From NCBI GenBank assembly GCA_938039915.1, contig CALHUA010000065.1, forward strand, positions 1 through 34,749: a stretch of DNA of 34,749 bases, given 5' to 3'. The notes beneath the pieces were generated by a model. It saw nothing but the letters and a program-made list of their open reading frames with translations. It ran no database searches and was not told the DNA's origin. Every line of letters begins with the position of its first letter. The stretch's first letter is position 1. A program made the translations under genes and the position numbers. This DNA is from an uncultured Anderseniella sp. GTDB lineage: Bacteria; Pseudomonadota; Alphaproteobacteria; Rhizobiales; Aestuariivirgaceae. Shown piece after piece: positions 1,099 to 22,038 of this stretch.

Positions 1099-1817
1099 CA
1101 GTGATCAGCCCCGTCTTCGGTTTCTTCAAGCAATTTCAACTTCTCGGCCCAGACTTTCTGCATGTTGAGATCAGCGACAATTTTCTTGTTGTTATCAGAC
1201 GGCAACATGGATTGCAGCCCTTCAATGAGCGATGTCTTCATCTGCTGGTCGAGATCGACTTCCTTCTCGATGTTTTCCAGCTCCTGCCTGATTTCTTCTT
1301 CATGTGTTCCCGACAATGCCGCATAGGCGAAACTTACAGATGTGATTGCTGTGTTCCATTCGCCGACCGTCTTGAAACCGAAACTCTTGATGTCTTTCTC
1401 AAGCGCCGGACCTTCTTTGGCCTGGGCCACAAACTGTTCAAGAGACTCGTATTCCGCGATATCGGTATCCTGATAGGTGTTCTTGAGTTTGACAAATCCG
1501 TCAATCGCCCGTTTGGCCAGGTCCGGTGTCAGTTCAACGGTTTCCACCGTGGAGATCGCAGGCGCCATCTCCTGGGTATTGTCGTTCTCATTGGTACTGT
1601 CGTTGTCCAAACTGTCCTGATCACCTGGCGAGAGTTGAAGCAACGGTTCGTTTCCAGGCGATGGAGCAAACGGTGCACTGCCCAACCCACCATTGGTTGC
1701 GGTGGGGCTTTGCGCCTCCAGCAGGCGCGTTTGATCCTTTGCCGCCAGCACAGGCTCGGCGCACATGACAACGAGTGCCAAGCTCATCAAACCAGCAATA
1801 TTTCCGGTGCCCTTCAT
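1098..1817 (-). CDS. conserved-looking secreted hypothetical protein
   Basis: A 239-residue protein of unrecognised family. The start chosen at 1817 gives an immediate Sec signal peptide (MKGTGNIAGLMSLALVVMCA, cleavage near AEPVLAA); an upstream ATG at 1886 would put 23 non-signal-like residues in front. After the signal there is a low-complexity Ser/Pro/Asn/Asp stretch to about residue 90. A predicted helical, charged domain then runs to the end, with an acidic segment (HEEEIRQELENIEKEVDLD) and a C-terminal Lys/Glu-rich helix. The stop overlaps the start of the enoyl-CoA hydratase homologue by one base (TGATG), so this is the first gene of a three-gene coupled operon. The 112 bp to the divergent thioesterase must hold both promoters. 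Function unknown. Confidence 0.7.
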   Translation of the reverse strand: MKGTGNIAGLMSLALVVMCAEPVLAAKDQTRLLEAQSPTATNGGLGSAPFAPSPGNEPLLQLSPGDQDSLDNDSTNENDNTQEMAPAISTVETVELTPDLAKRAIDGFVKLKNTYQDTDIAEYESLEQFVAQAKEGPALEKDIKSFGFKTVGEWNTAITSVSFAYAALSGTHEEEIRQELENIEKEVDLDQQMKTSLIEGLQSMLPSDNNKKIVADLNMQKVWAEKLKLLEETEDGADH

Positions 1818-1929
1818 CAGGACGGATTGTAGGGCACGGCAGATTGCGGGGGAAGTGCCATTGACGAGAAAGCCTGACTTGCCCAATACCAGTGAGTGAA
1901 TTGGACAAGCGTTGGCGGGATGCAGGTGA

Positions 1930-2355
1930 ATGGCACTGAAATGGTCGGCAGACGAGGTATTCGAGTTCCTGAGGGCGGAGTTCCCGCAGGCGCTGCGCGA
2001 TGGCGTAAACTATGAGGTGGTGAAGCTGGAACCGGAAGAAGCCCATGTCCGGCTCGTGGCCGGCGATCAGCAATTGCGCCCCGGCGGCACTGTTTCCGGG
2101 CCGGCCATGATGGAAATGGTGGACTTCTCGATCTATGTGTTGCTGCTGGCGCACCACAAGGAAGCGGCACGCCTTGCCGTAACCACCAATCTGGCAATTT
2201 CGTTCCTGCGCAAACCGCAGCCGGGGCCCATCGTGGCACAGATCCGGCTGATCAAGCACGGCCGCACCCTGACTGTGGCGCGCGTGGACATCATATCGGA
2301 GGTTGACGGCAAGCTGGTGGCCAGCTCAGAAGCGACATATTTCATGGGAAATTAA
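1930..2355 (+). CDS. PaaI-family hotdog-fold acyl-CoA thioesterase
   Basis: A 141-residue single hotdog domain. The characteristic helix follows a Gly-rich turn (RPGGTVSGPAMMEMVDFSIY), with Asp in the position used by PaaI/4-hydroxybenzoyl-CoA thioesterase relatives. Next come the strand pair TTNLAISFLRKPQPGPIVAQ and the terminal strands VARVDIISEVDGKLVASSEA. Family members hydrolyse acyl- or aryl-CoA thioesters in the cytosol; the substrate is not predictable. AGGTGA lies just before the ATG. The gene reads toward rplM and lies directly before it. A thioesterase before rplM-rpsI is, to my knowledge, a common order in Rhizobiales and is part of the taxonomic argument. Confidence 0.88.
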   Translation: MALKWSADEVFEFLRAEFPQALRDGVNYEVVKLEPEEAHVRLVAGDQQLRPGGTVSGPAMMEMVDFSIYVLLLAHHKEAARLAVTTNLAISFLRKPQPGPIVAQIRLIKHGRTLTVARVDIISEVDGKLVASSEATYFMGN

Positions 2356-2437
2356 TAAGGTAAAATAATACCACATGTATTTTGTGCAATAAAATCAGAT
2401 ATATATCATAATTTTCAATTTCATAATGCGCTTGACC

Positions 2438-2505
2438 CGATCTTCGGACCAGCGTAGAACCCACGCCAGCAAGATATCAGGTCGCCCCAAGGGTCCGAAG
2501 TATCG
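2438..2505 (+). promoter_or_regulatory. structured 5' leader of rplM-rpsI (candidate ribosomal-protein autoregulatory element)
   Basis: In the 182-bp gap before rplM, CGATCTTCGGACC (2438-2450) can pair with GGTCCGAAG-T-ATCG (2492-2505). This is a 13-bp stem with a single bulged T, closing a 41-nt loop. Inside it GCGT (2452-2455) can pair with ACGC (2463-2466). The upstream part (2356-2430) is very AT-rich and probably holds the promoter. In E. coli, L13 represses its own mRNA; whether this hairpin does the same is inference. Confidence 0.5.
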
Positions 2506-2537
2506 ATCTATAAATTAATCACTCAGGACTGACTGTC

Positions 2538-3002
2538 ATGAAAACCTTTTCTATTCGGGCATCCGAAATCGAGAAGAAGTGGATTCTGATTGACGCCGAA
2601 GGTCTGGTCGTAGGGCGCCTCGCCGCCGTTATTGCCACCCGTCTTCGCGGCAAGCACAAACCTTCTTTCACCCCTCATATGGACATGGGCGACAATGTTG
2701 TTGTCATCAACGCCGACAAGGTCGTGTTGACCGGCAACAAGCGTACCCAGAAAACCTACTACCGCCACACCGGGTATCCCGGCGGCATCAGGGAAGCCAA
2801 GGCCGACAGGGTCCTTGATGGTCGTTTTCCCGAGCGTGTGCTGGAACTGGCAGTCAAGCGCATGATGCCCGGCGGCCCGCTGAGCCGCGACCAGTTGTCG
2901 AACCTGCGCATCTTCGCCGGCACCGAACATCCCCATGAAGCACAGCAACCCGAGATCGTCGACGTCAAGGGCATGAACCCCAAGAACTCGCTGAGAGGTT
3001 AA
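2538..3002 (+). CDS. rplM: 50S ribosomal protein L13 (uL13)
   Basis: A 154-residue, full-length uL13. Hallmark segments are [20 protein letters not shown] (31 residues from an SxRAxE-type N-terminus), the central [18 protein letters not shown] and [12 protein letters not shown], and the C-terminal [21 protein letters not shown]. It is an early-assembling protein of the large subunit. An AGGA at 2525-2528 is 9 nt before the ATG. The rpsI gene follows after four bases, so the two form the usual rplM-rpsI operon, transcribed from the AT-rich leader upstream. Confidence 0.98.
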
Positions 3003-3006
3003 GGCA

Positions 3007-3489
3007 ATGGCTGAAGAAATCACCACACTGGAAGACCTCGGCGCAGCAATGGGCGCAGCGCCTGAAGCTGCAGCAGCACCTGCTGAGCCGAAAATCGATG
3101 CCCTTGGCCGCTCCTACGCGACCGGCAAGCGCAAGGACGCGGTGGCCCGCGTATGGATCAAGCGCGGCAATGGCAAGATCACAATCAATGGCCGTGAGAT
3201 CGAAACCTATTTCGCACGGCCCACCCTGCGCATGATCATCCAGCAGCCGCTGGAAGCGTGCGAACGCAAGGACGAGTTTGACATCGTCTGCACGGTCGGC
3301 GGCGGCGGTCTGTCCGGCCAGGCCGGTGCGGTACGTCACGGCATCTCCAAGGCACTGACCTATTTTGAGCCCGGCCTTCGCCCCGCGCTCAAGAGCGGTG
3401 GGTTCCTGACCCGTGACTCGCGTGTCGTTGAGCGTAAGAAGTACGGCAAGGCCAAGGCCCGCCGCAGCTTCCAGTTCTCGAAGCGTTAA
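3007..3489 (+). CDS. rpsI: 30S ribosomal protein S9 (uS9)
   Basis: A 160-residue uS9. The conserved body starts at about residue 38 ([20 protein letters not shown]) and contains [19 protein letters not shown]. It ends with the basic tail RRSFQFSKR, whose final Lys-Arg reaches the ribosomal P site in known structures. An acidic, Ala-rich N-terminal extension of about 35 residues precedes the body; such extensions are common in alphaproteobacterial S9. It begins 4 nt after the rplM stop and is followed by a strong intrinsic terminator. Confidence 0.98.
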
Positions 3490-7851: not shown

Positions 7852-8624
7852 GGCCAACCTCGATCCACACCTGCTGCAGTTAGCAGTTCCTGAAGCTTCT
7901 TGCGGGCGTTGAACAACCTGGCTTTCACTGTTCCTTCAGGAACGCTGAGAACCTCGCTCGCCTGTCTGATCGACATCTCGTGATAGTAGACGAGGTCGAT
8001 AATCTCACGGTGCAGCGGCGCAAGCGCGTCGGAGCATTTGCGCAACAACGCACTTTTGTCGGCTTTCTGACTGGCGATTTCCGGGTCGTCCTGTTGATCC
8101 GGGATCTGCGCAGCATGATCCTCGTTCCAGCACAGTTCACGCCGCTTTCTCATGACATTGCGCGACCGGTTGTGGGCGATTGCCAAAATCCAGGTTGAAA
8201 CAGATGAGCGGCCCTGGAAATTGCGCGCACCGCGCCATACTTCCAGAAACACTTCATTGGTCAGTTCTTCGGCAATGGCCGGGTTGCGAAGGATGCGTTC
8301 AACGAACCGGAAGACACCGGTCTGGTGTCGCGCAAACAGGGTTTTCATGGCCGTCGCGTCGGCATTTGAAATACGTGCCATCAGTTCGCGATCATCGGCC
8401 GCGTCGCCTTCCGTGTTCCGGACAGGGCGGTTGGTTCTGGAGAGTTTGTTTCGCGGTGTAGCCGAACGCGCACCTGTACAGTGTGAGCCCCGCGCGGCAA
8501 TCGGCTCGGCGGGAGCGAGGGCAAGATCGCGAAACTCGCCCGAGGCAACATCCTTGTCTCGAGCCCGAAAGTGGCGGCGGCCTGATAGAGGCGGGAACAT
8601 GGAAGGAGGGTCAAACGTGCTCAT
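7848..8624 (-). CDS. ECF-type RNA polymerase sigma factor with a long N-terminal extension
   Basis: A 258-residue sigma-70 family protein. Region 2 runs from about residue 78 (DDRELMARISNADATAMKTL) through AEELTNEVFLEVWRGARNF and SSVSTWILAIAHNRSRNVMR. Region 4 is at the C-terminus (LAPLHREIIDLVYYHEMSIR, then VPEGTVKARLFNARKKL). The start at 8624 is preceded by a near-perfect GGGAGG. It leaves an unusual extension of about 75 residues rich in Arg, Pro and Ala ahead of region 2, with a possible role in regulation. The stop overlaps the anti-sigma gene (ATGA). It heads the operon sigma, anti-sigma, S8 protease, FAD monooxygenase and is probably autoregulatory. Confidence 0.92.
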   Translation of the reverse strand: MSTFDPPSMFPPLSGRRHFRARDKDVASGEFRDLALAPAEPIAARGSHCTGARSATPRNKLSRTNRPVRNTEGDAADDRELMARISNADATAMKTLFARHQTGVFRFVERILRNPAIAEELTNEVFLEVWRGARNFQGRSSVSTWILAIAHNRSRNVMRKRRELCWNEDHAAQIPDQQDDPEIASQKADKSALLRKCSDALAPLHREIIDLVYYHEMSIRQASEVLSVPEGTVKARLFNARKKLQELLTAAGVDRGWP

Positions 8625-16996: not shown

Positions 16997-19024
16997 ATGT
17001 CATTCTTCTGCGGGGGGAGAATTGAATTGGAGGCAATCTACAAAGTAGGCGTATTCGGCTATCCGCACATAATTGTGGATGGGCAGACGATCACTGCGCC
17101 CGAAAAACTGGCAGTAGCGCTTGCCACCCTGGCAAGCCAGCCGGATCGAATGTTGAGCCAGAGACGACTGGTATCCATGCTTTGGGGCGATAATGACCGG
17201 GCCAAGGCCAATGCCAGTTTCAGGCAGTTCCTGGTCAAGGTCAGAAGACTCGAAACACAGCACGGCGGCATCCTGCTGAGCAAGTCCGGTAAACTGGTGT
17301 CTTACGACAACACCATTGTTCAGGTTGACCTTGAAAAAGCACTGAACCATGACTTCATTGCCGATGCCAGAAGCGGCAATTTTCCGGGCTTGACAACGTT
17401 CGTCACGATGCTGGACTCGCCCCTGCTGCAAGCAGTCAATATCGATACACACGAGTTTGAAGATTGGCACTACGAACTTTCGAACAGATTGCTGACCGCC
17501 AAAGGCGCAGCACTGTCAGCCCTGTTGGAACAGGAAACAGACCCCGACAGGATCAAGCAGGTCGCCACGGACCTGCTTGAACTCGACCCCAGCAATGAAG
17601 CTGCCTACAGGACCTTGATAAAATTCTGGGGAGAACAGGGAAACCACTCAAGAGCGCTGAAAGTCTACAATGAATGCCGCCAGGTGTTGTTGACCGACTA
17701 CGGCATCAAACCGAGCCTTTCGACCGAGCAGCTCGCAGCCACCATGGGCATCAAGGAACATTCTCCAAGACCACCGTTGGCGCCATTCACATCCGCTGGC
17801 AACGTGCGTTCAGCACATGCGGACAAAGATACAGCGCAGATTGAGCAAACCCAGAGAATCGGCGCACCGCGGATGATCCTGCTGCCGCCTCGTATGGTCC
17901 AGAGCGCGGCACCTTCGGTGCAACTGATTGAAGCGCTGCTCGACGATATTACCGCTGGCCTGACCCGCTACCGCAGCATCGCAGTGCTTGCAGCTCATAG
18001 CGGGCGTATGGCGAGCCAGGACTGCGGTCGCGATTTTGACGCGATCGGCAAGCGTTTTGGCGTGGACTATATTCTATCAACAGTTGTCAACTTCGACGAT
18101 GCCGGATCTTTGGTAACCTTTCTTGTGCTTGATGCGCACACAAGCGAAAGCCTGATGGCCATCACCAAGCGGCTGCGCGATGACGATCTGCCAGGATTGT
18201 TTTCAAGATTGAGTCTCGAGATTGTCCGGCAACTCGTCTCGACGATAGAACGCCGCGAAATTGCCGTTCCCACAACAACCGACAACAGCAATGCATATCA
18301 ATATTTCCTCAGCGGGCGCCGTTTGCTGTGGCACTCCGATCTCCCGGAAATAAGGAAAGCACGCGCGAGTTTTCGTCGCTCGATAAATGAGGCGGACAAC
18401 TTCGCGCCCGCTTATTCCGGATTATCCCGAACACTGAGCATGGAAAGACTGGTGCGCGGCATGTCTTCCAGCGAATTGCTCATCGAGTCCCTGGAATATG
18501 CCCACAAGTCTATCAGGCTTGACCCTCTGGATGGGCGCGGCATGCGCGAACTCGGCTTTACCAATCTGTATCTTCGACGCCATGACGAAAGCCTTGAAAA
18601 CTTTGCCGCTGCCGCAGACCTGACACCAAACGATGCGGATATGCTGGCAGACTATGCCGATGCGCTTTCTCATGCTGGACAAGGTGCCGAGGCACTTTCA
18701 ATCTGCCTGCAGGCGAAAGCTTCCAATCCAGATCCGCCGGCCTTTTACGATTGGCTACATGCCAGCATCCTGTATCAACTTTCCGCCTACAAAGCGGCAA
18801 TTGCGATATTGCAGCCACACCAAAACAACCCGGCAATCGCCCGCCTGCTCGCTGCATCTCATGCAATGTCAGGAGATCTGAGCACCGCAAAACGGTATGG
18901 CGCAACTGTTCGCGAGAATTATCCCAGCTTTGAACTCAATCGATTGAGTGAGCTGGTTCCTGACAAGAACGCGAACGATACCAAACACTTGGTAGAGGGC
19001 CTGCGCATGGCCGGCTTATCCTGA
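16997..19024 (+). CDS. SARP-like transcriptional regulator: winged helix, BTAD, TolB/FlgO-like region and TPRs
   Basis: A 675-residue regulator. Residues about 14-105 form an OmpR-type winged helix as in SARPs (KLAVALATLASQPDRMLSQR, LVSMLWGD, ANASFRQFLVKVRRLE). About 115-255 form the BTAD helical repeat (LLELDPSNEAAYRTLIKFWG, ALKVYNECRQVLLTDYGIKP). About 295-425 resemble the TolB/FlgO-like segment of CadC-type regulators (FGVDYILSTVVNFDDAGSLV). From about 430 to 640 there are tetratricopeptide-like repeats. No membrane helix is seen. The start is uncertain: the ATG at 16997 lacks a Shine-Dalgarno, whereas a TTG at 17027 has GGGGGGAG 7 nt upstream. It lies 112 bp before the precursor-peptide gene, whose promoter carries SARP-type repeats, so it is the likely activator. 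Confidence 0.87.
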   Translation: MSFFCGGRIELEAIYKVGVFGYPHIIVDGQTITAPEKLAVALATLASQPDRMLSQRRLVSMLWGDNDRAKANASFRQFLVKVRRLETQHGGILLSKSGKLVSYDNTIVQVDLEKALNHDFIADARSGNFPGLTTFVTMLDSPLLQAVNIDTHEFEDWHYELSNRLLTAKGAALSALLEQETDPDRIKQVATDLLELDPSNEAAYRTLIKFWGEQGNHSRALKVYNECRQVLLTDYGIKPSLSTEQLAATMGIKEHSPRPPLAPFTSAGNVRSAHADKDTAQIEQTQRIGAPRMILLPPRMVQSAAPSVQLIEALLDDITAGLTRYRSIAVLAAHSGRMASQDCGRDFDAIGKRFGVDYILSTVVNFDDAGSLVTFLVLDAHTSESLMAITKRLRDDDLPGLFSRLSLEIVRQLVSTIERREIAVPTTTDNSNAYQYFLSGRRLLWHSDLPEIRKARASFRRSINEADNFAPAYSGLSRTLSMERLVRGMSSSELLIESLEYAHKSIRLDPLDGRGMRELGFTNLYLRRHDESLENFAAAADLTPNDADMLADYADALSHAGQGAEALSICLQAKASNPDPPAFYDWLHASILYQLSAYKAAIAILQPHQNNPAIARLLAASHAMSGDLSTAKRYGATVRENYPSFELNRLSELVPDKNANDTKHLVEGLRMAGLS

Positions 19025-19045
19025 CAGGTTAGATCAGAAGAAGTA

Positions 19046-19100
19046 GTGTGATCGGGCCCGACCTGAAATCACACTTGAATCACACCCGTCCGCCTACGGT
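19046..19100 (+). promoter_or_regulatory. SARP-type heptamer direct repeat and -10 element before the precursor-peptide gene
   Basis: ATCACAC occurs at 19068-19074 and 19079-19085, separated by 4 bp (11-bp period). A third copy is in inverse orientation (GTGTGAT, 19046-19052). Nine bases after the last repeat is TACGGT (19095-19100), fitting TAnnnT. SARP regulators are known to bind heptamer direct repeats with 11-bp period about 8 bp before the -10. A hairpin between the first and second copies (loop containing the palindrome TCGGGCCCGA) could instead end the upstream transcript. Confidence 0.65.
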
Positions 19101-19136
19101 TCAGTTGTTAAAAATTCAACAAAGGCGGAAATTCCA

Positions 19137-19325
19137 ATGAACACAACATACGCACAAGACAGCACTTGCAGAAACTCAGTTCGCTCAAGTAACGGTCAGC
19201 TGTTTCCTATCTCAGCACGCGCTGATGCATCCACAGTCGCCGATCTGACGGACAATGGCGTGTTGTCATCAATCGTATTCACCGTGCGCTCCGAGCCTGG
19301 CCAGGTGTCTTGCACAGGTTGTTAG
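19137..19325 (+). CDS. candidate RiPP precursor peptide (YcaO/TfuA substrate)
   Basis: A 62-residue peptide with an AAAGGCGG ribosome-binding site. The leader-like part (1 to about 45) contains SNGQLFPISARADASTVADL and is polar with little Lys. The C-terminal part reads SSIVFTVRSEPGQVSCTGC and ends in a Cys-x-x-Cys pair; the only other Cys is at position 11. A short peptide with Ser/Thr/Cys near the end, directly before a YcaO gene, is the standard layout of an azoline- or thioamide-containing ribosomal peptide. No double-Gly cleavage site is obvious and no protease is in the cluster. Identification rests on context and composition; I recognise no described precursor family. The preceding repeats suggest activation by the BTAD protein. 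Confidence 0.75.
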   Translation: MNTTYAQDSTCRNSVRSSNGQLFPISARADASTVADLTDNGVLSSIVFTVRSEPGQVSCTGC

Positions 19326-19331
19326 AGCAAC

Positions 19332-19351
19332 ACGGGTTCAAGTGAACCCGT
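19332..19351 (+). promoter_or_regulatory. short hairpin just after the precursor-peptide gene
   Basis: ACGGGTTC (19332-19339) pairs with GAACCCGT (19344-19351) around a 4-nt loop, starting 6 nt after the stop codon. On the plus strand it is followed by A residues, so it is not a classical terminator. It could protect the 3' end of a short precursor transcript. Confidence 0.5.
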
Positions 19352-19377
19352 AAAAATTGCCTGAACACATCAGAAGC

Positions 19378-19425
19378 GACCAGGGTCATGGTTTTTGGTT
19401 GTTTCAACCAAAAACCATCCTGGTC
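19378..19425 (+). promoter_or_regulatory. long hairpin between precursor and YcaO genes (attenuator or processing site)
   Basis: GACCAGG (19378-19384) plus ATGGTTTTTGGTTG (19388-19401) pair perfectly with CAACCAAAAACCAT (19405-19418) plus CCTGGTC (19419-19425). This gives 21 bp with one 3-nt bulge and a TTT loop. It is the strongest secondary structure in the window and sits where expression of a peptide is usually uncoupled from that of its enzymes. No U tract follows. Confidence 0.65.
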
Positions 19426-19503
19426 AGATTTGCAGGTTTTCCAATTGATTGATGTATCAACAGCAATATCCATGAACTTTTCATACTGGTCGGGAGCAGG
19501 TCG

Positions 19504-20748
19504 ATGATGATCCCGGGGCAGGAAGCACGGACATCTTACCCGACGAATGATCGCATTTGCGGTTCACGTCTTACGCTGGCGAGATTGCGTCCTCATTTTT
19601 CTGCCCTGGGCATCACCCGGCTCGGCCAGTTGACCGGCCTGGACAATCTCGGTTTGCCGATAGCATTTGCAACACGGCCAAACTCGCTCAGCTTGTCTGT
19701 AAGTCTGGGCAAAGGTGCCGATCTCGACTCTGCCCTGGTTTCAGCGGCCATGGAGGCTGCGGAAACCGCCATCGCAGAAGTGCCACCGAAAGACCTCGTC
19801 GAGCTGTCCGCTCGCGAGGCCCGCAACCGGGGTTTCCAGGTGGTGGACCTTGATCGAATTGCCCGCTGTCATCCTCATCGGTTGAACGAGAACGACAAAA
19901 TTTCCTGGATTGAAGCACTCAACCTCATATCAGGTGAGCGGTTCCTAGTTCCGTGGAGTCTCGTCGGCCTTGATCACAGGCTTAGTCCACCCAACTTCAA
20001 CAATGCATTCTATGTGACATCAGACGGTCTTGCGTCCGGCAACAGTCGAGGCGAAGCGATATTTCATGGTATTTGCGAACTTGTTGAACGTGATGCACTT
20101 GCCTCCTGGCAGTTTGCCGCTGACGATGAAATCAGGCGCTCGCAGTTGACCATCACAGGTGACGAAGATCCGCGCCTGCCGGTTATTCTTGAGGCCATTT
20201 CGGCTTCAAACAGTTCTCTGCGTGTCTACGAAATGCGTACTGATACGGGAATACCCTGTGTGATGGCCGTTATGGACGCGACAAGCCGGCAAAGCGCCGC
20301 GGTCGCCTCGGCAACATGTGGCGGATGTGCATGTCATCCATCGTTCGGGCATGCAATCGTGAAAGCCGTTACCGAAGCAGCCCAGGCCCGGTTGGCACTT
20401 GTCGCCGGCGCACGCGACGATTTTTCCTCCAAGCACTATGAACCGGCCGATGCAATCAGATTGCCGGCGGCCGACAACGCCAACCGACCAACTCTCCCGA
20501 AAATGGCCCGAACTACCTCCCGTCGATCCGGCTACGGCACACACGATATCGACTTAGGCGTCACCGATGTGGCGGCAGCTTTGGCCAGGGTCGGTGTTGA
20601 CCAGCTATTCGTAGTGGAATTGCCTGCTCAACAATTCGGCATCAGCGCCGTACGCGTCATTGCCACCGAATTGCAGGTACCTCTTCACGGTGAACGCGTA
20701 CAGGTCACACCAAGAGGGTTGCGAAACCTGAAGGCGGCAGCCGCATGA
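19504..20748 (+). CDS. YcaO-domain peptide-modifying enzyme
   Basis: A 414-residue YcaO protein. The ATP-binding signatures of the family are present in order: SLGKG (67-71) with Glu84 and Glu87 (SAAMEAAETA), SGNSRGEA with ELVERD (178-197), and the ExxQxR motif (Glu291, Gln294, Arg296). YcaO enzymes activate backbone amides with ATP, making azolines, or with a sulfur donor and TfuA, thioamides. No fused ThiF/E1-like leader-binding domain is present, and the C-terminus (RGLRNLKAAAA) lacks the Pro-rich end of azoline cyclodehydratases. Cys271, Cys274 and Cys276 form a CGGCAC cluster. GGGAG lies about 7 nt before the ATG. The stop overlaps tfuA-like by ATGA. Confidence 0.93.
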   Translation: MMIPGQEARTSYPTNDRICGSRLTLARLRPHFSALGITRLGQLTGLDNLGLPIAFATRPNSLSLSVSLGKGADLDSALVSAAMEAAETAIAEVPPKDLVELSAREARNRGFQVVDLDRIARCHPHRLNENDKISWIEALNLISGERFLVPWSLVGLDHRLSPPNFNNAFYVTSDGLASGNSRGEAIFHGICELVERDALASWQFAADDEIRRSQLTITGDEDPRLPVILEAISASNSSLRVYEMRTDTGIPCVMAVMDATSRQSAAVASATCGGCACHPSFGHAIVKAVTEAAQARLALVAGARDDFSSKHYEPADAIRLPAADNANRPTLPKMARTTSRRSGYGTHDIDLGVTDVAAALARVGVDQLFVVELPAQQFGISAVRVIATELQVPLHGERVQVTPRGLRNLKAAAA

Positions 20749-21482
20749 GAATCCTGTTTACCGGGCCAACCCTTTCCAGTCAGCTTCAGACCATAACCGA
20801 GCGCTATCCGGAGATCGATGTACGCGGTCCGGCCGCATGGGGCGATGTTGCCCAGGCCGTTCATGATGGCGCGACCAGAATCGGCATTGTCGACGGGTAC
20901 TTCGAGCAAACCAGATCTGTCTGGCACAAGGAGATCATTTTTGCCCTTTCGCGCGGTGTGAAAGTTGCCGGCGCGGCAAGCCTCGGTGCGTTGCGGGCAG
21001 CGGAGTGTGAACCATTTGGCATGATCCCGATCGGGACAATCGCCAATGATTATATCTCAGGCGCACTGGTCGATGACTCCGATGTGGCACTGGTGCACGC
21101 CCCGGCTGAAGTCAATTACCTGGCATTGTCCGAGCCCCGGGTAAATGTAATCGCCACGCTCAACTCAATGTTGAAGGAAAATCTGCTGTCCACGACGGAA
21201 TGGAAAAATGCCAAGGCTGTTGCAGACAGGATGTTTTACGCCGAACTCAGTTTGCGAGCCGTGTTTTCAAACATGCAGATCATGAATGCAAACCGTATCG
21301 AGCGGCTGATAGAAATAGCCAAGGTCAAATACGTAGATTTGAAGCAGACAGACGCCCTGGAATTGGTCGATTGGCTGCAATCTGACACGGACATTCCCGC
21401 GGCAACTGGCAAACCGTGGAACTTCAACCAGACAACACAATGGATCGAAATGCGTGAGGCGATGAGTTCAAACGATAGGTGA
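20745..21482 (+). CDS. TfuA-like protein (YcaO partner)
   Basis: A 245-residue protein with the complete TfuA-like signature. An N-terminal ILFTGPTLSS is followed by GPAAWGDVAQAV, IGIVDGYFEQTRSVWHKEII, then GAASLGALRAAECEPFGMIP and DDSDVALVHAPAEVNY. TfuA was named from trifolitoxin production. Its relatives work with YcaO to introduce thioamides, as in thioviridamide-type peptides and in thioglycine of methyl-coenzyme M reductase, where they are thought to help deliver sulfur. The overlap with the YcaO gene (ATGA) implies coupled synthesis. This pairing is the main reason to predict thioamidation rather than azoline formation. The C-terminal 60 residues are less conserved-looking and helical. 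Confidence 0.93.
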   Translation: MRILFTGPTLSSQLQTITERYPEIDVRGPAAWGDVAQAVHDGATRIGIVDGYFEQTRSVWHKEIIFALSRGVKVAGAASLGALRAAECEPFGMIPIGTIANDYISGALVDDSDVALVHAPAEVNYLALSEPRVNVIATLNSMLKENLLSTTEWKNAKAVADRMFYAELSLRAVFSNMQIMNANRIERLIEIAKVKYVDLKQTDALELVDWLQSDTDIPAATGKPWNFNQTTQWIEMREAMSSNDR

Positions 21483-21576: not shown

Positions 21577-22038
21577 ATGACAAGTCCAATTGCGACAACC
21601 AAAATAGCAAATTTGCTGAATGAACTTTCACAGGTCAACGGCGTTAACAGCAAGTCTTTGATGACAATCGGGGAGGTGTCGAAAAATCTGGACATGACAC
21701 CCAGAACCATTCGCTTCTACGAGCAGTCCGGCATCGTCACACCGCACAGAAGTGGTCGGTTTCGATTGTTCAGCTACAAGGACATTTGTTCACTGCGGCT
21801 GTCAAAACAGCTGCGGTCCCTGGGCATGGAAGTCAAGGATATTGCAAGCCTGATACAGACGGCAGCGGCTGGAGGACGTGACATAGACTATAACGATCTT
21901 CTTCTGGAAACGCTCAGCGAGCGCCTGGAATCGCTTGGCTCGGAACTCAGTGCCGCCGAACAGCGCTTTGCCAGTTGCCAACAGGCGTTGAACGAACTGG
22001 CCAGCAATGCCTCAGAAAACAAAGTGGCTCACAAATAG
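21577..22038 (+). CDS. MerR-family transcriptional regulator
   Basis: A 153-residue regulator. The winged-helix domain begins near residue 29 after an unusual N-terminal extension of about 28 residues: MTIGEVSKNLDMTPRTIRFY, EQSGIVTPHRSGRFRLFSYK, then LRLSKQLRSLGMEVKDIASL. A coiled-coil helix (about 113-145, LLLETLSERLESLGSELSAA) ends the protein. The effector domain is short and has one Cys (near 133), so it does not resemble metal-sensing CueR/ZntR proteins. GGGGG lies about 8 nt before the ATG. It follows the TfuA gene by 94 bp on the same strand and may control the peptide cluster or the copper genes next to it. The target is unknown. Confidence 0.88.
   Translation: MTSPIATTKIANLLNELSQVNGVNSKSLMTIGEVSKNLDMTPRTIRFYEQSGIVTPHRSGRFRLFSYKDICSLRLSKQLRSLGMEVKDIASLIQTAAAGGRDIDYNDLLLETLSERLESLGSELSAAEQRFASCQQALNELASNASENKVAHK

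Follow-up and report, generated by a model that had tools for sequence, protein, structure and literature searches.

A tandem heptamer pair of conserved 11-bp period as the probable operator of a SARP-type regulator in alphaproteobacterial TfuA-YcaO peptide clusters

The DNA analysed here (the window) is a stretch of 34,749 nucleotides from an uncultured Anderseniella sp. whose genome is 78% complete. It carries a regulator gene, a gap of 112 bp, a short precursor ORF, and then ycaO adjoining tfuA, an arrangement that makes it a TfuA-YcaO RiPP cluster. The gap holds a direct pair of heptamers ahead of a presumed -10 element and a Shine-Dalgarno-like sequence. The features, with their basis in brackets, are:

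16997 to 19024, plus strand: regulator gene, 675 aa (translation; Pfam and AfsR sequence matches, structure model, fold matches)
17039 to 17326, plus strand: winged-helix DNA-binding part, residues about 15-110 (secondary structure of the model)
Inside the winged helix, plus strand: recognition helix around residues 71-86, ANASFRQFLVKVRRLE (model)
17327 to 17743, plus strand: BTAD, all-helical, residues 111-249 (Pfam match; model)
17843 to 18826, plus strand: CadC-like half, residues 283-610, in the C-terminal alpha/beta and TPR region (VIA-align)
19046 to 19052, minus strand: inverted copy, GTGTGAT on the plus strand, judged incidental (present in the window, missing from the L029 and L031 gaps)
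19068 to 19074, plus strand: upstream operator heptamer ATCACAC (sequence; conservation in orthologues)
19079 to 19085, plus strand: downstream operator heptamer ATCACAC, period 11 (sequence; conservation in orthologues)
19095 to 19100, plus strand: presumed -10 element TACGGT, 9 bp past the operator (inferred from the sequence and from equally spaced TACGCT in L029 and TACGAT in L031)
19106 to 19108, plus strand: predicted transcription start (from the presumed -10 alone)
19123 to 19129, plus strand: Shine-Dalgarno-like AGGCGGA (sequence)
19137 to 19325, plus strand: precursor peptide gene, 62 aa, C-terminus ...VFTVRSEPGQVSCTGC (translation; orthologues)
19504 to 20748, plus strand: ycaO (Pfam YcaO, E 6.5e-62)
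20745 to 21482, plus strand: tfuA (Pfam TfuA, E 5.9e-37)

The precursor is 63, 60 and 31% identical to those of the orthologous loci L029, L031 and L033, respectively. Repeated cores occur among the relatives: the precursor of genome G044 (L033, 9464-9778, minus strand) contains DKLDGVMFTMRSEPTE three times, and that of G046 (L034, upstream of ycaO) contains four copies of VLTTMR(A/S)Q; in the window the core is present once. The peptides of L128, L129, L130 and L137 look repetitive too, at the DNA level. For the YcaO and TfuA proteins of the window (19504-21482), the best NCBIfam scores were those of the McrA-glycine thioamidation pair (TIGR03266 and NF033432), under the curated cut-offs. Two strong hairpins (19332-19351 and 19378-19425) separate the precursor from ycaO, and the 178-nt stretch between these genes has a folding z-score of -5.2 against shuffles; the hairpins may determine how much precursor transcript is made relative to enzyme transcript. 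The next gene after tfuA encodes a MerR-family regulator (21577-22038) and is retained in L029, L030 and L031; in Rhizobium, a small gene takes this position.

The initial annotation had described ATCACAC-N4-ATCACAC, followed after 9 bp by TACGGT, ahead of the precursor gene, and reading of the sequence confirmed this arrangement (19068-19085 and 19095-19100). The heptamers have a 4-bp spacer and thus an 11-bp period, and the full repeat unit, AATCACAC, starts at 19067 and at 19078. The 34.7-kb window has exact heptamer repeats with this period at three positions (19067/19068, 28755 and 29676), so that the pair alone is unremarkable and needs outside evidence. With up to three mismatches, the search pattern matched the window once, at the pair itself, against a mean of 3.35 in shuffles, a count that amounts to no test. 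The tandem score of the gap was equalled in 0 of 1000 shuffles, using a matrix partly trained on the window site. The annotation had let its stretch begin at 19046; the direct pair within it held up, and the inverted GTGTGAT at its start is absent from the two closest orthologues. We rejected an inverted-repeat or CRP-like site formed by GTGTGAT (19046) and ATCACAC (19068) on the same grounds and because the two arms are 15 nt apart.

Conservation of the repeats in orthologous loci, on which the annotation had staked its reading, was found: the 11-bp period is kept while the letters change. Heptamer pair and period are in place in three orthologues, with regulators 80, 79 and 49% identical to that of the window. 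The gap of L029 (80%) reads AATCACACTTGAATCACAC, then 9 bp and TACGCT; that of L031 in genome G042 (79%) reads AATCACACTTGAGTCACAC, then 9 bp and TACGAT; and that of G044 (49%), whose cluster is apparently divided between two contigs (L080 and L033), reads CTCACACAGGAGTCACGC. A third heptamer, ATCCCAC, lies 11 bp upstream of the pair in G042. No pair was found upstream of ycaO in G046 (L034), where the regulator (40% identical) is located after tfuA and the gene order is altered. One of the regulator relatives carries a name, belonging to a MAG labelled Anderseniella sp. IP29b_bin.131.

We scanned six genomes of the window's genus with the pattern at no more than one mismatch and obtained 12 matches, compared with two for a reversed control pattern. 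The three orthologous precursor promoters account for four of the 12, since the third heptamer of G042 makes its promoter match twice. The other eight (L199, L203, L204, L206-L210) fall inside coding frames or where these begin; four of the eight coincide with the start of a single gene, whose product begins MCDACVIESVK. The motif-like ATTACACATGCATCACAC seen in L204, L206 and L208, with a variant in L199, is the reverse strand of this gene start and was dismissed as a chance look-alike. Among the non-promoter matches inspected in these six genomes there was no second operator target.

Profile searches for ycaO in 397 genomes of the order, 199 of one family, 289 of the class and 148 of one genus, plus smaller sets, yielded many clusters with a homologous regulator ahead of precursor, ycaO and tfuA. 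Searches of the families around G078, in 20 genomes, and around G130, in 28 genomes, gave no additional cluster at the thresholds used. A scoring matrix was built from the window and the three orthologues only and scanned on both strands of unseen loci of 10-11 kb. The best match in the gap took rank 1 in L122, L132 and L160, rank 2 in L123 and rank 3 in L161; in L120 and L121 it came at rank 4, and in L119 at rank 13. The gaps of L129, L186 and L130 are long; the matrix failed in the former two, the rank-3 match in L130 was poor, and none of the three has a convincing site. When periods of 6-17 were tested, period 11 scored best in 8 of 11 unseen gaps (the poor match of L130 is among the eight), with a mean score of 8.4 as against at most 4.4 at other periods. 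In the farther loci the heptamer letters drift to about RTNACRC and the 11-bp period stays. With a search pattern defined after the gap sites had been seen, a pair at period 11 was present in 12 of the 15 gaps between regulator and precursor that measure 85 bp or more, and other spacings gave none; this set of 15 includes L129, L130 and L186 and excludes L135, L184 and L187, for which the script found no precursor start. In a tree, a single clade of 11 rows accounts for the gap sites (10 rows have one, L034 lacks it), apart from that of L132. They are thus essentially one clade and one locus and represent few evolutionary events.

A -10 element can be made out clearly in the closest relatives only: the three nearest loci have TACGGT, TACGCT and TACGAT, 9 bp from the operator, compared with 8 bp quoted for SARP promoters. 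Farther out the -10 is ambiguous, and its spacing, by eye, seems to vary between 8 and 9 bp. When columns were counted over 23 distinct sequences from outside Rhizobium lineage 1, no single sharp hexamer emerged (L129, L130 and L186 had been omitted from the 12-locus list of this analysis after their earlier failure), and no -10 hexamer was evident in 25 distinct sequences of Rhizobium lineage 1.

Rhizobium provided a larger set of promoters. In the genus of G435, 91 of 148 genomes have a ycaO of this type, and a search of plasmid DNA with part of the L119 locus of G435 returned 115 records, 114 of them from Rhizobium, including p42e of R. etli CFN 42. We collected 56 promoters, 53 from the 91 ycaO-matching Rhizobium (g32) genomes and three from a sister genus; six of these loci are shared with the 12 gap-site loci. 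A period-11 pair was found in 55 of the 56, and each other period from 7 to 18 gave 0 or 1. The one miss, L227, differs in the last base. The commonest form, GTAACGC-TTAA-ATGACGC with small variants, accounts for 36 loci (L227 included), and a second form, GTCAC(G/A)C-C(G/T)(G/A)A-ATAACGC, for 17. On p42e of CFN 42 the genes are annotated as BTAD regulator (RHE_RS26310), hypothetical protein (the precursor, RHE_RS33860), YcaO and TfuA. In a 13.7-kb stretch of this plasmid (L261) the cluster's strand has the pattern at two positions only, 6175 (ahead of the precursor) and 8399 (at the tfuA end), and the other strand has none. The site at 8399 precedes a small gene, RHE_RS26295, which is identical, by eye, to that of L119. 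The two matches are exactly the two predicted promoters.

Besides the precursor gap, the pair recurs in two other places, which were noticed first and counted afterwards; L187, whose regulator match is truncated, was left out of the place counts. Around the tfuA stop, 12 of 36 regulator loci have a pair, with at most two at any other spacing. Just before the regulator gene, on either strand, it is present in 5 of 37 loci (other spacings, at most one), and these five are minus-strand sites. In 25 Gln-type loci, a matrix test of the regions ahead of the regulators, aimed at clusters whose precursor directly follows the regulator (L033, L187 and L121 dropped), gave a mean of 6.4 at period 11 and of 5.9 at the next best period, a faint excess. 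None of the three places has a site in 17 of 38 regulator loci, and the tfuA-end search in the window revealed no second pair.

Pairs at or just past the tfuA stop lie, in cluster orientation, at L119:7100, L120:7346, L121:6931, L122:7507, L134:7415, L160:6949, L161:6793, L184:7302, L188:6580, L189:6587, L190:6959, L191:6921 and L195:8204, and at L261:8399. The distance from this pair to a small gene of about 70-100 codons is mostly 57-75 bp (27 or 51 bp in L191, 148 bp in L195). A Pfam scan of the small genes after tfuA (four proteins from 13 loci: L119, L134, L160 and L188) found no family above its curated cut-off.

A chance repeat, or DNA conserved for some other reason such as an RNA element, could in principle account for the pair, as other period-11 heptamer repeats exist in the window. 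Against this, the period is kept across several lineages despite the change of letters, and the pair recurs in the two places just described. Persistence of the period through the changes of letters sets the pair apart from an isolated resemblance, and we consider the probability of this explanation negligible.

Another candidate is some other cellular response regulator of the OmpR/PhoB type, the adjacency of the BTAD gene being incidental. The SARP-type reading given in the annotation stood as far as the heptamer direct repeats and their period of 11 are concerned; such geometry is not peculiar to SARPs, as PhoB/OmpR-type winged helices also use tandem half-sites. PhoB is described as binding a tandem half-site pair (PMC3264566), and Streptomyces PhoP as sharing the AfsR site at afsS (PMC10972967). 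The control loci speak against such a regulator. In clusters without a neighbouring regulator, no pair was found at the tfuA end at any spacing (0/25), and 1 of 26 has one upstream of ycaO (L177); some of these loci have scant upstream sequence (L181, 172 bases) or a homologue of the C-half elsewhere (L127, L131, L165, L177, L196). As the pair is rare where no regulator adjoins, it tracks the regulator and not the biosynthetic genes. A global regulator would, moreover, have many sites, whereas the window's genome (78% complete) contains a single exact match, and the other matches inspected in the genus sit in coding frames or at their start. As to PhoB itself, the half-site TGTCA reported in PMC3264566 is, by reading, absent from both strands of the site ATCACACTTGAATCACAC (ATCACAC, in reverse GTGTGAT). 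Taken together, binding by another OmpR/PhoB-type protein of the cell seems very unlikely, and the SARP-type reading of the heptamer pair is supported.

The protein encoded upstream fits that reading. The annotation had assigned it a winged helix plus BTAD, and this was borne out by a predicted fold of the AfsR/EmbR kind and a Pfam BTAD match (PF03704, E 1.2e-10, 42.4 bits against a cut-off of 22.1, residues 160-248); TPR was also matched. Pfam Trans_reg_C scored under its cut-off (E 0.029). By sequence, the regulator matched AfsR with E 9.7e-6 (residues 1-254) and 1.4e-4 (whole protein). A structure model from 38 sequences (mean pLDDT 87.8, pTM 0.60) shows, in order, a winged helix, the all-helical BTAD, a disordered linker (255-288), an alpha/beta part and TPR helices. 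In Foldseek, TPR proteins came out on top; AfsR ranked 3, 4 and 16 (TM-score by target 0.68-0.71) and EmbR 26 and 28 (0.50-0.51), in both cases with the N-half. As in SARPs, then, an OmpR-type winged helix stands at the N-terminus (model residues 15-110) and a BTAD follows it, the latter detectable in 29 of 38 homologues at E 0.01.

The C-half is of another type. Residues 283-610 aligned with CadC in VIA-align at Z 23.3-23.5 over 299-303 residues (rmsd 3.5-3.6, 10% identity), the next rows being at Z 17.9; the C-terminal part thus has the sensor fold of the CadC/ToxR group. No transmembrane helix was found between the DNA-binding and sensor parts by simple hydropathy: the maximum 19-residue mean is 1.38, at residue 359, outside the 250-290 linker. 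As there is no strongly hydrophobic 19-residue stretch, the window regulator is probably soluble; by the same measure, 9 of the 38 homologues exceed 1.6 somewhere. Near another YcaO-TfuA cluster, L035 encodes a protein (1367-3241, minus strand) whose C-half resembles that of the window regulator and whose N-half is similar to class III nucleotide cyclases (Pfam Guanylate_cyc, E 0.0019, under cut-off). The C-half was likewise matched in L037, L039, L040, L041, L043, L045 and L046.

In the winged helix, W63 and R76 are present in 38 of 38 regulators and Q77 in 27, and position 81 is Arg or Lys in 36. The AfsR residues T88 and R92 contact bases according to PMC10936776; in the phmmer alignment, mapped by counting, they correspond to Q77 and K81 of the window regulator. 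A site is present in 20 of 27 Gln77 loci versus 1 of 11 others (Fisher p 6e-4, uncorrected for relatedness, which is a confounder; for L033 the residue was taken from L080, the second contig fragment of that cluster, and L121, entered by hand, was later confirmed as Gln).

We conclude that the heptamer pair is most likely the operator of the SARP-type regulator encoded directly upstream, which would activate the precursor-ycaO-tfuA operon. Two SARP-type protomers would lie side by side on both heptamers, on one face of the helix and in place of a -35 element, and the bound protomers would recruit polymerase to the -10 at 19095. The operon would thereby be switched on, with the precursor promoter as the presumptive target of the regulator, and the CadC-like C-half probably senses a signal. 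The regulator could instead bind the pair as a repressor that a signal relieves. Protein on the downstream heptamer, which is placed shortly ahead of the presumed -10, could obstruct polymerase, and some sites precede the regulator gene itself. On the other hand, the 9 bp to the presumed -10 are close to the 8 bp of SARP activators such as AfsR (PMC10936776). A scan of 18950-19520 for sigma-70 promoters detected no -35/-10 pair, which would suit an activated promoter, an argument that carries little weight given that shuffles average only 0.5. We regard repression as unlikely and favour activation by the SARP-type regulator.

Beyond the window, we think it rather probable that such proteins form a widespread alphaproteobacterial one-component class, with the DNA-binding half of a SARP and a CadC-like sensor half. 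Its regulon would be small and cluster-bound, acting via RTNACRC-N4-RTNACRC at the precursor operon (in one clade), at a small helical gene downstream of tfuA and, in part of the loci, at the region upstream of the regulator. If so, SARP promoter logic would be a cross-phylum device rather than an actinomycete one, and the regulator would offer a handle for turning on silent peptide clusters. TfuA-YcaO clusters are common in Rhizobium and relatives, and the prediction is a precise regulator-site pair that is testable in R. etli CFN 42, a standard laboratory strain and soil symbiont.

TfuA-YcaO clusters have been reported widely in Proteobacteria and in Rhizobium (PMC8120280); in the main text of that paper, BTAD and SARP do not appear and 'regulator' appears once. 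Judged by titles and the openings of abstracts, the literature retrieved in broader searches had nothing on how proteobacterial TfuA-YcaO clusters are switched on. Nor did we find SARP or BTAD operators in proteobacteria in the open-licence literature, judged partly by title or abstract. What our results add to the known systems is probable SARP promoter logic in Gram-negative RiPP clusters, with a regulator joining SARP and CadC-like halves.

With AfsR and other SARPs of Streptomyces, as described in PMC10936776 and PMC10972967, the system shares the winged helix plus BTAD fold, two 11-bp direct repeats directly ahead of the -10 (presumed in the window), a large form carrying additional C-terminal domains and, as predicted for the window, control of specialised-metabolite genes. 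At the afsS promoter, the afs box covers the -10/-35 spacer and its upstream repeat overlaps the -35 (PMC10936776). In contrast to AfsR, the window system is alphaproteobacterial, has heptamers ATCACAC/RTNACRC instead of CGTT(T/C)ATCGNN, stands 9 bp from the presumed -10, and has a CadC-like/TPR C-half where AfsR has NOD plus TPR. PimR and other SARP-LAL regulators also have heptamers with 4-nt spacers and a large C-terminal half; the main operator of PimR, however, consists of three heptamers that do not overlap the -35, and its C-half is of the ATP-binding LAL type (PMC5930380). Thioamidated RiPP clusters of the TfuA-YcaO kind resemble the window in having ycaO adjoining tfuA and a small precursor ORF. 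Unlike 'small' SARPs, which have no C-half, the window regulator has one that is CadC-like. CadC is the membrane-bound pH and lysine sensor of E. coli. The window C-half shares its fold (Z 23.5 over about 300 residues) at 10% identity, and the window regulator differs from CadC in an N-half made of winged helix and BTAD and in having no strongly hydrophobic 19-residue stretch.
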